From Duganella sp. BJB480 (GTDB lineage: Bacteria > Pseudomonadota > Gammaproteobacteria > Burkholderiales > Burkholderiaceae_D), in the NCBI GenBank assembly GCA_003416985.1, contig QVIN01000010.1, positions 178,584-242,583 of the forward strand: DNA of 64,000 nucleotides, given 5' to 3'. The translations under genes were made by a program, and so were the position numbers. Below are positions 58,587 through 63,741 of this stretch, piece after piece; position 1 is the first letter of the stretch; every line of letters begins with the position of its first letter. The notes under the pieces are model-generated. The model saw only the letters and a program-made list of their open reading frames with translations, had not been told where the DNA came from and did no database searches.

Positions 58587-59282
58587 ATGAACGCCGATCC
58601 ATTAGAACTGCAAAAATTCTCCGACCTCGCCCATCGCTGGTGGGATCCGACCTCCGAATTCCGTCCGCTGCACGAGATCAACCCGCTGCGCCTGGAGTGG
58701 ATCAACGCGCGCGCGCCGCTGGCCGGCAAGAAGGTGATCGATATCGGCTGCGGCGGCGGCATCCTGAGCGAATCGATGGCGCGCAAGGGCGCCACCGTGA
58801 CCGGCATCGACCTGTCGGAAAAAGCGCTGAAGGTGGCCGACCTGCACAGCCTGGAGTCGGGCGTGGCGGTGCGCTACAAGCTGATCGCCGCCGAGGAAAT
58901 GGCGGCCCAGGAGCCGGGCCAGTTCGACGTCGTCACCTGCATGGAAATGCTGGAGCACGTGCCGGACCCGAGCGCCATCGTGCGCGCCGCCGCCACGCTG
59001 GTCAAGCCGGGCGGCCATGTGTTCTTCTCCACGCTCAACCGCAACCCCAAGGCCTACCTGTTCGCCATCCTGGGCGCCGAGTACCTGCTGCGCATGCTGC
59101 CCAAGGGCACCCACGACTACGACAAATTCATCACACCGGCCGAGCTGGCGCAATACGTGCGCAGCGCCGGCCTCGACGTGCAGGGCTTCAAGGGCATGGG
59201 CTACAACCCGCTGACCAAGATCTATTCCCTGAACGAAGACACCAGCGTCAACTACCTGGTCGCCACCACCCGTCCGCTGTAA
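58587..59282 (+). CDS. ubiG: Bifunctional 2-polyprenyl-6-hydroxyphenol/3-demethylubiquinol O-methyltransferase
   Basis: A 231-residue SAM-dependent methyltransferase for the two O-methylations of ubiquinone synthesis. [20 protein letters not shown] at the start, SAM motif [20 protein letters not shown], and [20 protein letters not shown] are UbiG hallmarks. It is followed 9 bases later by gph, the usual ubiG-gph pair. Confidence 0.94.
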
Positions 59283-59291
59283 AGACTCTTT

Positions 59292-59984
59292 ATGACCCAG
59301 ATCAATCCTCCGCGCGCCATCCTGTTCGACCTCGACGGCACGCTGGCCGACACCGCCCCCGACCTGGCGGCCGCCGTCAACCTGCTGCGCACCGAACGCG
59401 GCCTGGAACCGACCGCCTACGAGCTGCTGCGCCCGACCGCCTCGGCCGGCGCGCGCGGCATGATCGGCGCGGCCTTCGGCCTGAAACCGGAGGACGAGGG
59501 CTTCATCCCGCTGCGCGACGGTTTCTTCGCCAACTACCAAGCGGCCATGGCGGTGCACAGCTCGCTGTTCCCCGGCATCGCCGAGCTGCTGGCCGGCATC
59601 GAGCAGGCCGGGCTGCAATGGGGCGTCGTCACCAACAAGCCGGCGCGCTTCACCGATCCGCTGCTGCCGCAGATCGGCCTGGGTCATGCGGCCTGCGTGG
59701 TCTCGGGCGACACCACGCCCCACGCCAAGCCGCACCCGGCGCCGCTGTTCGAGGCGGCCGCCCGCCTCGGCCTGGCGCCTGAGCAGTGCTGGTACGTGGG
59801 CGACGACCTGCGCGACATCCAGGCCGGCAAGGCGGCCGCCATGCCGACCATCGCCTGCGGCTGGGGTTACTGCGGCCCGGTCGAACCGCTGAGCTGGCAG
59901 GCCGACTATCTGTTTGATAGTCCTTCGCAACTATTGGTATTACTGCAAGAAACATTGTCCGGCAGATCCGAATTGGCCGCCTGA
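59292..59984 (+). CDS. gph: Phosphoglycolate phosphatase
   Basis: A 230-residue HAD-superfamily hydrolase. The nucleophile motif is ILFDLDGTLADTAPDLAAAV, motif II VVTNKPARF, and motif III/IV CWYVGDDLRDIQAGKAA. It removes 2-phosphoglycolate from DNA repair or other side reactions in characterised homologues. Its position behind ubiG is conserved. No clear terminator follows, only a weak 6-bp stem. Confidence 0.9.
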   Translation: MTQINPPRAILFDLDGTLADTAPDLAAAVNLLRTERGLEPTAYELLRPTASAGARGMIGAAFGLKPEDEGFIPLRDGFFANYQAAMAVHSSLFPGIAELLAGIEQAGLQWGVVTNKPARFTDPLLPQIGLGHAACVVSGDTTPHAKPHPAPLFEAAARLGLAPEQCWYVGDDLRDIQAGKAAAMPTIACGWGYCGPVEPLSWQADYLFDSPSQLLVLLQETLSGRSELAA

Positions 59985-60070: not shown

Positions 60071-60098
60071 TTGTTCAAGCAGTTTAACTACGTATAAT
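60071..60098 (+). promoter_or_regulatory. Predicted promoter of the tandem unknown-protein genes
   Basis: TTGTTC (60071-60076), 16-base spacer, TATAAT (60093-60098), about 105 bases before the ATG at 60203. The -10 is a perfect consensus. It implies that the following pair is transcribed separately from gph. Confidence 0.55.
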
Positions 60099-60202: not shown

Positions 60203-61210
60203 ATGACTTTTCCTGAGCTGGCTGCCCCGACTTCGCAGCCCTACTCCGAGCAATCCGGGCCGGGCGCGCCGCAAAGCTGGACGGTCGGCGTGGCCAACGC
60301 CAAATACCACTGGTACGACCTGGTGGCGGGCTTCCCGCCGGCGCCGGACATCCGCGATCCGATCGGCCGCTACCAGCGCCGCATGCAGTTCGAGCTGGAG
60401 GCGGCGTCGGCCCAGCGCCACCTGTTCTTCGCCGTGATCCGCCCGCGCGTGCGCTTCGACATCAAGGGCGCGGTGCAGTGGGGCTTCTTCTCGCTCAAGC
60501 TGACGCTGCCGCTGCTGATGGGCGCGGACGAGGCCAGGGAGAGCATCACCATCGAGCTCAAGGTGCCGTTCGCGGCCACCATGAAAAAGCCGACCGTGAC
60601 GCTGACGCCGAACTTCGTCACCCTGAACTGGGGCGGCCTGATCGAGGCATTCTCGGTCCACGACATCCTGCAAACCCACGCCCACGCCCTGAAGATCCCG
60701 AGCAAGGTGGTGTATGTCGGCCAGACCCGCGACGACGACGCGCGCCTGGGCAAGGGCCGCCTGCCGGCGCTGCAAAGGCTGCACGCGCAGCACAGCGAGC
60801 ATTTCGACACCCTGCTGCTGGTGCAGCAACTGGAGATCCAGGTCAGCTGCGCCGACGGCGATCCGGCCGACGCCGCGCACAACGCCGATCCGGTGGCGGC
60901 CGACGCGCTGCAGGAGACGCGCATGGAACTGATCGAGGCGGCACTGGTCAGCTACTTCGAGGGCGCCTCCGCGCGCAGCCGCACCGCCGAGCAGCGCACG
61001 CTGCGCGCCGCCCGCCTGGCCGCGCTGCAGGCCGAGCACAACCTGACGCAGTACACCATCGACCTGCATTACGAGGACGCCGGCCGCTACAACTACCTGT
61101 GCTCCGAACACGTGGCCAGCGCCCGCCAGCACCTGCTGAGCTGCTTCATCGCCGACGGCCAGGCCATGGTCGCCGCCATGCCTCCGTCGGCAAAACCCGG
61201 CAAAACCTGA
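60203..61210 (+). CDS. Uncharacterised protein with GIY-YIG-like core, tandem paralogue 1
   Basis: A 335-residue soluble protein I cannot assign. Residues about 25-165 form a conserved N-terminal region (KYHWYDLVAGFPPAPDIRDP, VQWGFFSLKLTLPLL, VTLNWGGLIEAFSVHDIL), predicted mostly beta, with no known domain recognised. Residues about 166-255 resemble a degenerate GIY-YIG nuclease: VVYVGQTRD (171-175 core), Arg181, and IEAALVSYFEG with Glu245 in the place of the metal-binding Glu; the first GIY motif is not evident. No signal peptide. An AGGGG site precedes ATG 60203. Similar throughout to the next gene. Confidence 0.65.
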   Translation: MTFPELAAPTSQPYSEQSGPGAPQSWTVGVANAKYHWYDLVAGFPPAPDIRDPIGRYQRRMQFELEAASAQRHLFFAVIRPRVRFDIKGAVQWGFFSLKLTLPLLMGADEARESITIELKVPFAATMKKPTVTLTPNFVTLNWGGLIEAFSVHDILQTHAHALKIPSKVVYVGQTRDDDARLGKGRLPALQRLHAQHSEHFDTLLLVQQLEIQVSCADGDPADAAHNADPVAADALQETRMELIEAALVSYFEGASARSRTAEQRTLRAARLAALQAEHNLTQYTIDLHYEDAGRYNYLCSEHVASARQHLLSCFIADGQAMVAAMPPSAKPGKT

Positions 61211-61363
61211 GGTGCGCCCGTTTGGCGGCCGCCACGTGCGTGCCGGCCGCCGTGGTGTTACATTGCGTGAAGATTGCGACTGCTATAGACTTGCCAGATG
61301 GAAATGTTCCAGGAAGCAGACTATACTGTGGAAAATACTTACATCGATCCAGGAGCGCAGGCC

Positions 61364-62473
61364 ATGACGAGCGATTTAATCGCTGAGGACGACTATCCAG
61401 ATCCGTCGCTGGATGAGTTGGGCGTAGGCGCCTTGTTCGCCGAAGCGCCGGAGCCGTTCCACGACCTGCTGGCCGCGCCGGCCGAGCAGATCGACGAGTT
61501 GCTGCCGCTGATGCCGCAACGTACCACCGCGCCCCAGACCTGGGTGGTGACGGTGGCCGACGCCAAATTCCACTGGTACGACCTGGTGGCCGGCTTCCCG
61601 GAAATCCCCGACATCCGCGACCCGGTCGGGCGCCATCTGCGCCGCATGCAGTTCGACCTGGAGGCGACGATGGAGAAACGGCTGATCTATTTCGCCGTCA
61701 ACCGTCCGCGCGTGCGCTTCGACCCGTCGCGCAGCACCAGCTGGGGCTTCTTCTCGCTCAAGCTGACGGTGCCCATCCTGGTGGGCGCCGAGGGCAAGCG
61801 CGACAGCATCACCATCGAGCTCGAAGTGCCGTTCGCGGCCACGCTGAAAAAACCCAGCGTGGTGGTCACCGACCGCTTCATCACGCTCAACTGGGGCGGC
61901 TTGATCGAGGCGCTGTCGATCCACGACGTGCTGCAGCAATACGAGAATACGCTGACCTTCCAGAGCAAGGTGCAGTATGTCGGCCAGACCAGGGACCCGC
62001 TCGGCCGCCTGGCGCGCGCGCGCCTGCCGGCGGTGCAGCGGGTCCACCAGAACAACAGCGAGGACAACGACATGCTGCTGCTGATCCAGCGCATGAACGT
62101 GGAAGTGATGTCCGACGACGGCGACCCGGCCGAGCTGCCGGCCAACGACAATCCGGTGGCGGCCGACGTGCTGCTGAAGGACCGCATCGACGCCGTCGAA
62201 TGCGCGCTGATACGCTACTTCGAAGGCCCGCAGATGCACGGCCGCAGCGACAAGGAAGCCGACATCCGCAAGCAGCGCGTGCGCCAGATCAAGGAGATCA
62301 ACAACCTGGAGAGCTTCCGCATCGACCTGCGGCTGGAAAATCCGGGCAAATACCATGACCTGTTTTCCGCCCACGCGGGCGTGTCGCGCAGCCACATCAT
62401 CGACTGCACCATCGCCGACGATGGCGAGGTGCTGGTCACCCGCGTGCCGGACAAGGTCAAGGCCAAGCCCTAG
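61364..62473 (+). CDS. Uncharacterised protein with GIY-YIG-like core, tandem paralogue 2
   Basis: A 369-residue paralogue of the preceding protein, with an extra acidic N-terminal segment of about 55 residues. ATG 61364 is chosen for the AGGAG ahead of it; ATG 61298 and 61304 have no such site. The shared blocks are KFHWYDLVAGFPEIPDIRDP, RPRVRFDPSRSTSWGFFSLK, LNWGGLIEALSIHDVL, VQYVGQTRDPLGRL (205-209 core, Arg215) and VECALIRYFEGP (Glu279). The GIY-YIG resemblance is inferred from this motif order and spacing only. The 153-base gap from paralogue 1 could hold its own promoter. Function unknown. Confidence 0.65.
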   Translation: MTSDLIAEDDYPDPSLDELGVGALFAEAPEPFHDLLAAPAEQIDELLPLMPQRTTAPQTWVVTVADAKFHWYDLVAGFPEIPDIRDPVGRHLRRMQFDLEATMEKRLIYFAVNRPRVRFDPSRSTSWGFFSLKLTVPILVGAEGKRDSITIELEVPFAATLKKPSVVVTDRFITLNWGGLIEALSIHDVLQQYENTLTFQSKVQYVGQTRDPLGRLARARLPAVQRVHQNNSEDNDMLLLIQRMNVEVMSDDGDPAELPANDNPVAADVLLKDRIDAVECALIRYFEGPQMHGRSDKEADIRKQRVRQIKEINNLESFRIDLRLENPGKYHDLFSAHAGVSRSHIIDCTIADDGEVLVTRVPDKVKAKP

Positions 62474-63741
62474 ACCGCGGCCAGCGCCTGTTCCAGGTCG
62501 GCCAGCAGATCGTCGCTGTGCTCGATGCCGATCGACAGCCGCACGGTGTCGACCGTCACGCCGGCCTTGGCCAGCTCCTCCTCGTTGAGCTGGCGGTGCG
62601 TGGTGGACGCAGGATGGCAGGCCAGCGACTTGGCGTCGCCGATGTTGACCAGGCGCGTGAACAATTTCAGCGCATCCTGGAAACGCGCCCCGCCCTGCAC
62701 GCCACCCTCGACGCCGAAGGTCAGCACGCCGGAAGGCCGTCCGCCCAGGTACTTCTTCGCCAGCGCGTGGTCGCGGTGATCCTCCAGGCCGGCATAGTTG
62801 ACCCACTTGACCTTGGCGTGGCCGCTGAGGAACTGCGCCACCTTGCGCGCATTCTCGGTGATGCGCTCCATGCGCAGCGCCAGCGTCTCTATCCCCTGCA
62901 GTATCAGGAAGGCGTTGAACGGCGAGATCGCCGCGCCGGTGTTGCGCAGCGGGACCACGCGCGCGCGGCCGATGTAGGCCGCCGCCCCCAGCGCCTCGGT
63001 GTAGACCACGCCGTGGTAGGACACGTCCGGCTCGTTGAGGCGCTTGAAGCGCTCTTTGTGCTCCGCCCACGGGAACTTGCCGGAATCGACGATGGCGCCG
63101 CCGATCGAATTGCCATGGCCGCCCAGGTACTTGGTCAGCGAATGCACGACGATGTCGGCGCCGTGCTCGATGGGGCGCAGCAGGTAGGGCGTGGCGACGG
63201 TGTTGTCGACGATCAGCGGCACGCCATGCTGGTGGGCGACGGCGGCGATGGCCTCGATGTCGGTGATGTTGCCGAGCGGGTTGCCGATCGACTCGATGAA
63301 CACGGCCTTGGTGCGCTCGTCGATCAGCGCCGCGAACGAGGACGGGTCGCGGGCGTCGGCGAAGCGGGTGGTGATGCCGAACTGCGGCAGCGTGTGGGCG
63401 AACAGGTTGTAGGTGCCGCCGTACAGCGTGGAGGCCGAGACGATGTTGTCGCCCGCCTCGGCGATGGTCTGGATCGCGTAGGTCACGGCCGCCTGCCCCG
63501 AGGCCAGCGCCAGCGCCGCCACCCCGCCCTCCAGCGCGGCCACGCGCTGCTCCAGCACGTCCTGGGTCGGGTTCATGATGCGGGTGTAGATGTTGCCGGG
63601 CACCTTGAGGTCGAACAGGTCGGCGCCGTGCTGGGTGTCGTCGAAGGCGTAGGCGACGGTCTGGTAGATCGGCACCGCCACCGCGCGCGTGGTGGGGTCG
63701 GGTTGATAGCCGCCGTGGACGGCGATGGTTTCCAGCTTCAT
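62470..63741 (-). CDS. metY: O-acetylhomoserine sulfhydrylase (MetY-type)
   Basis: A 423-residue PLP enzyme of the Cys/Met-metabolism family, making homocysteine from O-acetylhomoserine and sulfide. [20 protein letters not shown] at the N-terminus, [18 protein letters not shown], and the PLP lysine K204 in [18 protein letters not shown]. The length (about 425-435 for MetY versus about 390 for MetZ/MetB) and the GHGNSIGG block favour O-acetylhomoserine aminocarboxypropyltransferase. It converges on paralogue 2, overlapping it by 4 bases. The 169 bases upstream (63742-63910) show no gene. Confidence 0.92.

Follow-up and report, generated by a model that had tools for sequence, protein, structure and literature searches.

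A duplicated Duganella gene family with a GIY-YIG-like core, a fixed chromosomal locus and distant relatives on or near mobile elements

What are the two adjacent, mutually similar genes that lie near the end of a 64,000-nucleotide stretch of the Duganella sp. BJB480 genome (contig QVIN01000010.1, positions 178,584 to 242,583; the whole of this stretch is referred to as the window), and what might they do? The pair, here called copy A (protein P0001) and copy B (P0002), was noticed in an original prediction made from the nucleotide sequence alone, which described tandem paralogues with a degenerate GIY-YIG nuclease core and suggested a DNA-processing or defence-like role. We tentatively propose that both genes belong to a nuclease-derived, probably anti-phage family that has become fixed in the genus and has split into two copies, one under more constraint than the other. 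We place the probability of this reading at about 0.43, slightly lowered because of the results of a global profile comparison, those of a profile comparison using only proteins from outside the genus, and a smaller gap between the copies in dN/dS (the ratio of nonsynonymous to synonymous substitution rates).

Both open reading frames (ORFs) were confirmed on the forward strand (Table 1), and the motifs by which they had been recognised (KxHWYDLVAGFP, WGFFSLKL, LNWGGLIEA, YVGQT, the subsequent Arg, and a Glu with its AL..YFEG block) were all found in the sequences. The two proteins share 53% identity across 313 query residues, and the window genome yields no matches at E<=1 beyond these two paralogues. 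The statement that they could not be matched to any family held for Pfam, NCBIfam and PADLOC, where scans of P0001 and P0002 gave no match at E<=10. It did not hold for PHROG 7779, itself a phage protein family of unknown function, which matches P0001 (E 5.6e-12, residues 24-321) and P0002 (E 8.9e-17, residues 84-382) over nearly its full length (profile positions 20-321 and 24-325 of 342). Sequence searches of the PDB gave chance-level matches only, with a best E of 1.1 for P0002 and 0.7 for a 77-row alignment, and the literature searched contained no paper joining Duganella with GIY-YIG and none naming PHROG 7779.

The family, rare overall, is a stable component of the window's own genus, taken here as Duganella/Rugamonas/Pseudoduganella, bacteria of soil and water. 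Using a profile of 11 members (cut-off E<=1e-4), we found it in 69/74 genus genomes (67/71 of those of good quality), and in all 69 positive loci fetched the family gene or genes follow ubiG-gph on the same strand. Copy B is 95-96% identical to its counterpart in Rugamonas sp. A1-17, and an alignment restricted to the genus, suited to finding close relatives, gave 47 loci in GTDB genome contigs titled Duganella, Rugamonas, Pseudoduganella, Massilia or Oxalobacteraceae bacterium, all of which we take to belong to the window's genus. With P0002 alone as query, matches were obtained in 5/116 genomes of the taxonomic family, all in the window's genus (1/44 genera) and none in the 43 other genera sampled. 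Samples of the class (1/321) and phylum (1/398 and 1/398) returned the window genome alone each time; these also missed the Escherichia coli, Serratia and Acinetobacter carriers described below, and therefore bound frequency, not presence. Four good-quality genus genomes keep gph and are without the family. Other ORFs stand downstream of gph in these genomes (L216-L219), one of those in L217 looking like an NYN-domain protein.

Duplication of the gene accounts for the pair. At least two family ORFs are present in 34 loci and one in 35. A maximum-likelihood tree was built from 101 genus rows (32 A, 34 B and 35 single-copy) and three outside rows. In this tree A, B and four single-copy rows form one clade (100/99), with A set off on one side of a branch (99/98), so that the A/B pair would fit one duplication. 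The B rows do not resolve as one demonstrated clade, and the remaining 31 single-copy rows fall outside the A/B clade. Among the four single-copy rows inside it, L072 is nested among B rows and has lost A, while the tree is compatible with either loss of A or earlier branching for L090, L091 and L094. In two further loci copy A is damaged and copy B whole: A is split across two frames in L093 (genome G534) and is without an internal stretch in L074 (G574).

Selection on the family in the genus is purifying. We estimated dN/dS for the coding core from 14 pairs each for A and B, which were hand-picked and partly overlap, and from 6 single-copy pairs. Median values were 0.18 for A (range 0.14-0.50), 0.16 for B (0.08-0.30) and 0.07 for the single-copy gene; the neighbours gph and ubiG gave 0.09 and 0.03, respectively, in the 14 pairs. 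The value for A exceeds that for B in 12 of the 14 pairs, in some barely, and the two copies differ little; median core identity is 0.91 for A and 0.95 for B. The duplicated copies therefore appear somewhat relaxed relative to the unduplicated gene. Taken together, the breadth of occurrence in the genus, the constant position of the locus and these core ratios argue that the pair is more than a product of chance.

They also suit a different account, in which the gene was recruited to a housekeeping task in the genus, such as DNA or RNA processing or regulation, and gave up its defence role there. A position directly after ubiG-gph in every positive locus, a vertical-looking phylogeny and purifying selection would all be expected of such a gene, and the unduplicated form evolves about as slowly as gph. 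On the other side, the four good-quality genomes without the family indicate that it is not essential to the genus, both duplicated copies evolve faster than either gph or ubiG, and the homologues placed outside the genus lie on or near mobile elements. Housekeeping recruitment is in our judgement a real possibility, if a tentative one.

The outside homologues supply the link with defence on which the anti-phage reading depends. They comprise a protein of E. coli phage PhiR63_1, one on a Serratia plasmid and others in four Acinetobacter baumannii records. Two Acinetobacter records catalogued among plasmids (NZ_CP077849.1, 3.66 Mb, and NZ_CP064203.1, 3.97 Mb) are chromosome-like by size. Three of these outside proteins are 20-22% identical to copy B. 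The PhiR63_1-type gene is present at at least 95% identity in 61/5426 E. coli genomes, and relatives of it were found in 8 viral contigs; scans of viral contigs with P0002 and with P0004 as queries found no relative. In one E. coli genome (H39, NZ_CP027340.1, 2074684-2076594) an IS1-family element splits the prophage homologue. In Acinetobacter, going by the one record considered, two small genes separate the homologue from TniQ, TniB, rve and TnsA-like proteins of the Tn7-like type, and the neighbours of the Serratia plasmid gene include no defence gene by name.

In PhiR63_1 the homologue gene stands directly after the integrase, and in the three E. coli records listed with both genes it starts 158 bases from it. 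This slot (L011, PV340573.1, 1468-3216, together with L206-L214 and L228-L233) belongs to E. coli prophages inserted near yjjG. We catalogued its occupants by annotation in 12 E. coli genomes, drawn from 40 rows listed of 689 integrase records after setting aside the top four (the homologue is present in three of these), as well as in 3 other distinct phages. The 12 genomes carry an anti-phage dCTP deaminase (2), a dGTPase family protein (1), Dsr1 (2), AIPR (abortive infection phage resistance; 1), a DUF4365 protein (1), a double-stranded RNA-binding protein plus an HNH protein (1) and unknown proteins (4), so that known anti-phage types (dCTP deaminase, dGTPase, Dsr1, AIPR) occupy the slot in 6/12; two of the three phages carry BovA and one an unknown protein. 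PADLOC, applied to the occupants of the first six E. coli genomes, matched the dCTP deaminase, dGTPase and Dsr1 strongly and the HNH protein weakly (1e-11), and gave no match for two unknowns and the double-stranded RNA-binding protein. The unknown occupants (413 amino acids twice, 331 and 460 in E. coli; 239 in one phage) are candidate new defence genes. Anti-phage genes are thus frequent cargo at this E. coli prophage slot. One paper names mobile elements, prophages among them, as where most E. coli defence genes are kept (PMC9519451). A mobile or defence setting does not apply to the window locus itself, a fixed chromosomal site in the genus, and does apply to those distant relatives that could be placed.

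The resemblance to GIY-YIG nucleases includes a short motif and the order of the elements around it. In the two window proteins YVGQTRDPLGR and YVGQTRDDDAR combine the Tyr and Gly with an Arg 10 residues after the Tyr (YVGxT-x5-R), Gly229 and Thr231 are invariant, and both this spacing and the E-x2-LI signature of the later Glu are the same as in the UvrC sequences examined. In an AlphaFold model of copy B (mean predicted local distance difference test, pLDDT, 83; 265/391 residues at or above 90; predicted template modelling score 0.78), YVGQT occupies strand 223-230, followed by helix 244-253, strand 257-272 and helix 286-309, where E301, a putative catalytic residue, stands in ExxLI with hydrophobic residues after it. 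The original prediction had placed this core at about residues 165-260 of the first copy and 200-290 of the second: Y171, R181 and E245 of copy A fall inside, and E301 of copy B lies beyond.

Profile comparison points the same way. We assembled a 36-row GIY-YIG profile out of proteins of relatives (UvrC, URI-like and others), and compared it with the family using hhalign, which places YVGxT and the Arg at +10 on the GIY-YIG motif. The 77-member query scored 31.5 (P 2.7e-4, probability 42%) and a 104-row query 30.4 (P 4e-4, 35%). Neither score was reached by any of 200 column shuffles (best 24.0 and 26.2), and the reversed profile scored 13.5 and 12.2, respectively. The profile, run as a hidden Markov model on the 5694 ORFs of the 69 loci, gave 24 domain rows at E<=1 (best E 0.11), all 24 of them family members and, being homologous to each other, not independent. 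GIY-YIG was also the commonest weak Pfam match of the family (10/77 members at E<=1, best 0.017, neither P0001 nor P0002 among them); the score was 12.8 bits in one example, where the cut-off is 22.6. GIY-YIG descent is in our view partly supported by these comparisons. The likeness could instead be convergent, YVGxT-R-E having arisen on an unrelated fold. The shuffle and reversal controls, the joint agreement of motif, spacing and strand/helix order, and the failure of any non-family ORF among the 5694 to match the GIY-YIG profile at E<=1 all speak against convergence. In its favour are the low global profile probability, the missing first motif, the helix lying between the strands that would bear both motifs, and the lack of a significant fold match, each detailed below. 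We regard convergence as rather doubtful.

Conservation of the putative Tyr/Arg/Glu triad is unequal between the copies. Residues were counted in 102 genus rows (33 A, 34 B and 35 single-copy) and three outside rows. The exact triad is intact in 73/102 genus rows: in 32/34 B rows (34/34 when Phe and Asp are allowed), 20/33 A rows and 21/35 single-copy rows, where 11 of the 14 departures have Lys in place of Arg. By position, Y227 is kept in 91/102, R237 in 84/102 (Lys in 11/102) and E301 in 98/102. The three outside homologues and both window copies retain the triad. Conservation reaches 99% or more in the genus, with the same residue in all three outside rows, at twelve positions (W93, Y94, D95, R136, R140, K185, H209, G229, T231, D258, F308 and H366), so that constraint on the family-specific part is no weaker than that on the triad. 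A catalytically dead binding scaffold or sensor of nuclease descent, with its real active or binding site at W-Y-D, R136, R140, K185, H209, D258 and H366, would account for this difference between those residues and a triad exact in just 73 rows. It sits less well with the retention of the triad by nearly all B rows and by the three outside homologues, and we judge it unlikely.

The original observation of a divergent pair with an acidic extension on one member was borne out, and the extension is a feature of copy B in particular. The region before the conserved Trp has a median length of 61 residues in B, with medians of 14 for acidic and 1 for basic residues (31 rows); the corresponding medians are 33, 3 and 1 in A (29 rows) and 20, 3 and 1 in single-copy rows (31), where starts were picked by a simple rule and rows with an unrecognised pattern were left out. 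Model confidence is below 50 across most of the tail. Copy B itself more likely begins at ATG 61364 than at 61298, AGGAG lying upstream of this ATG and relative P0007 having its first residues, MTSD, at the aligned position; the acidic N-terminus is retained with the shorter start.

Several observations weigh against a nuclease-derived anti-phage family. The GIY-YIG probability is just 35-46% in local mode (46% with the uncut profile) and 7.5% in global mode, it falls to 4.4% (P 0.009) when the three outside proteins serve as the only query, the same residues aligning, and only the YVGxT-R part aligns locally. A GIY, or hydrophobic-hydrophobic-Tyr, motif on a first strand some 10-13 residues before YIG was not found in the rows read. 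A simple hairpin would be expected at the place that helix 208-214, bearing the invariant His209, takes up in the model; column 215, beside the end of this helix, is aromatic or His (Tyr in 69/102 rows). Foldseek searches, run with no positive control, gave a best E of 0.033 (probability 0.08) for the whole model against the PDB, with no GIY-YIG entry in the best 50 of 567 matches, 0.007 (probability 0.25) against viral models, and 1.5 for the excised core. The last of these is weak evidence, as the core folds worse when excised than within the whole protein, strands 223-230 and 257-272 no longer being assigned. The original claim of a GIY-YIG-like core that has lost its first motif is therefore backed by sequence profiles and not by fold searches. 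Ten of the twelve most conserved positions lie outside YVGxT, G229 and T231 being within it, and outdo Y227, R237 and E301. The defence link is an association drawn from the context of homologues only 20-22% identical to the window proteins, 4/12 of the E. coli slot occupants have no known function, and PADLOC has no match for P0001, P0002, P0003 or P0004. Finally, defence genes are usually patchy in distribution, whereas this family is present at one locus in 69/74 genomes; if it serves defence, such fixation would be notable for that reason. Overall, we consider the interpretation originally offered for the pair to be partly supported.

With these points in mind, we can outline a mechanism for a nuclease-derived anti-phage family. 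Both genes would encode a diverged GIY-YIG-type nuclease core inside a larger, family-specific protein. The family would travel among the accessory genes of mobile elements, its most plausible role there being that of an anti-phage effector encoded by one gene. Fixation of one member downstream of ubiG-gph would have taken place in an ancestor shared by most Duganella/Rugamonas/Pseudoduganella members. After duplication in one subclade, copy B would have retained the putative catalytic Tyr/Arg/Glu and gained its acidic tail. Copy A, having lost constraint on the triad residues, probably became a partner or specificity subunit, and the two proteins may form a heteromer. The family-specific part (W93-Y94-D95, R136, R140, K185, H209, D258 and H366) may bind or sense a trigger, whether nucleic acid or something else, cleavage would take place at the YVGxT/R/E site, and the acidic tail would restrain the cutting site in copy B. 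In its fullest form, this proposal extends to an undescribed anti-phage nuclease family of prophages, Tn7-like elements and plasmids, fixed as an immune gene of the genus. Its first motif would have been replaced, perhaps by His209, and it would have been duplicated into an obligate two-subunit enzyme, with one subunit catalytic and restrained by an acidic tail that may mimic DNA, and the other fast-evolving and conferring specificity. We consider this extended form improbable.

The remaining features of the locus are collected in Table 1, where the ubiG-like, gph-like and metZ-like names of the neighbours are putative. The promoter-like element predicted upstream of copy A has the letters described, but its -35 box agrees with the consensus at 3/6 positions, it is absent from our promoter scan listing, and its exact form occurs in 4/69 loci (the window, L064, L065 and L068), which leaves the promoter claim weak. 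An element of the type found upstream of the likely copy B start was observed once in the scan, against 0.4 expected.

Table 1. Coordinates of the family genes, their parts and surrounding features in the window (residues numbered as in the called proteins).
Feature	Position	Strand	Remarks
Copy A, P0001, 335 amino acids	60203..61210	+	Less constrained paralogue; putative triad Y171, R181, E245 intact
Copy B, P0002, 391 amino acids as called	61298..62473	+	More conserved paralogue; Y227, R237, E301
Likelier copy B reading frame, 369 amino acids	61364..62473	+	ATG preceded by AGGAG
Acidic tail specific to copy B	61364..61540	+	Low model confidence for most of its length, read as disorder
GIY-YIG-like half of copy B, residues 186-345	61853..62332	+	H209 invariant, YVGQT strand, R237, E301 helix
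ubiG-like methyltransferase, conserved neighbour	58587..59282	+	
gph-like phosphatase	59292..59984	+	Immediately upstream of family genes in 69/69 loci
O-acetylhomoserine sulfhydrylase-like (metZ-like) gene, convergent	62470..63741	-	4-base overlap with copy B
TTGTTC (60071-60076)-N16-TATAAT (60093-60098) upstream of copy A	60071..60098	+	Weak -35
TGGAAA-N17-TATACT upstream of likely copy B start	61299..61327	+	9/12 consensus matches

The implications of a nuclease-derived anti-phage family would be twofold. It would constitute a candidate anti-phage family lying outside the PADLOC, Pfam and NCBIfam models searched, and it would exemplify how a mobile gene from a defence slot can become stable and genus-wide and then be split into more and less constrained subunits. 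Even if the gene proves to serve housekeeping, a genus-wide gene with relatives in a prophage defence slot offers a handle on the domestication of immune genes.

Comparison with known systems places these proposals in context. The family would share with GIY-YIG nucleases such as the UvrC N-terminal domain (PF01541) the YVGxT motif, the Arg at +10, the ExxLI helix and a strand-helix-strand-helix order. It differs from them in having no GIY motif, an extra helix between the strands and large family-specific parts, and none of its HMM or fold matches to them is significant on its own. Unlike PHROG 7779, the genus members are fixed chromosomal genes, partly duplicated and with an acidic tail on one copy. 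A parallel in design may be CMoRE/PD-T4-3, described as a single-gene GIY-YIG type IV restriction enzyme (PMC12923530). The likeness that we propose is one of single-gene defence with a GIY-YIG core and a private sensing domain, and the negatively charged inhibitory loop of that enzyme recalls the acidic tail of copy B; the two are compared by description, the window proteins matching no PADLOC model. SNIPE, which combines DUF4041 with GIY-YIG, offers a second parallel as an anti-phage nuclease restrained by another part of the protein (PMC13190303). It is unlike the window family in being membrane-bound and in carrying DUF4041, which our Pfam scans do not list; a membrane helix was not searched for. 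Homology to either system is proposed only at the level of a possible superfamily, and CMoRE/PD-T4-3 and SNIPE show that a single-gene GIY-YIG design can work in defence.

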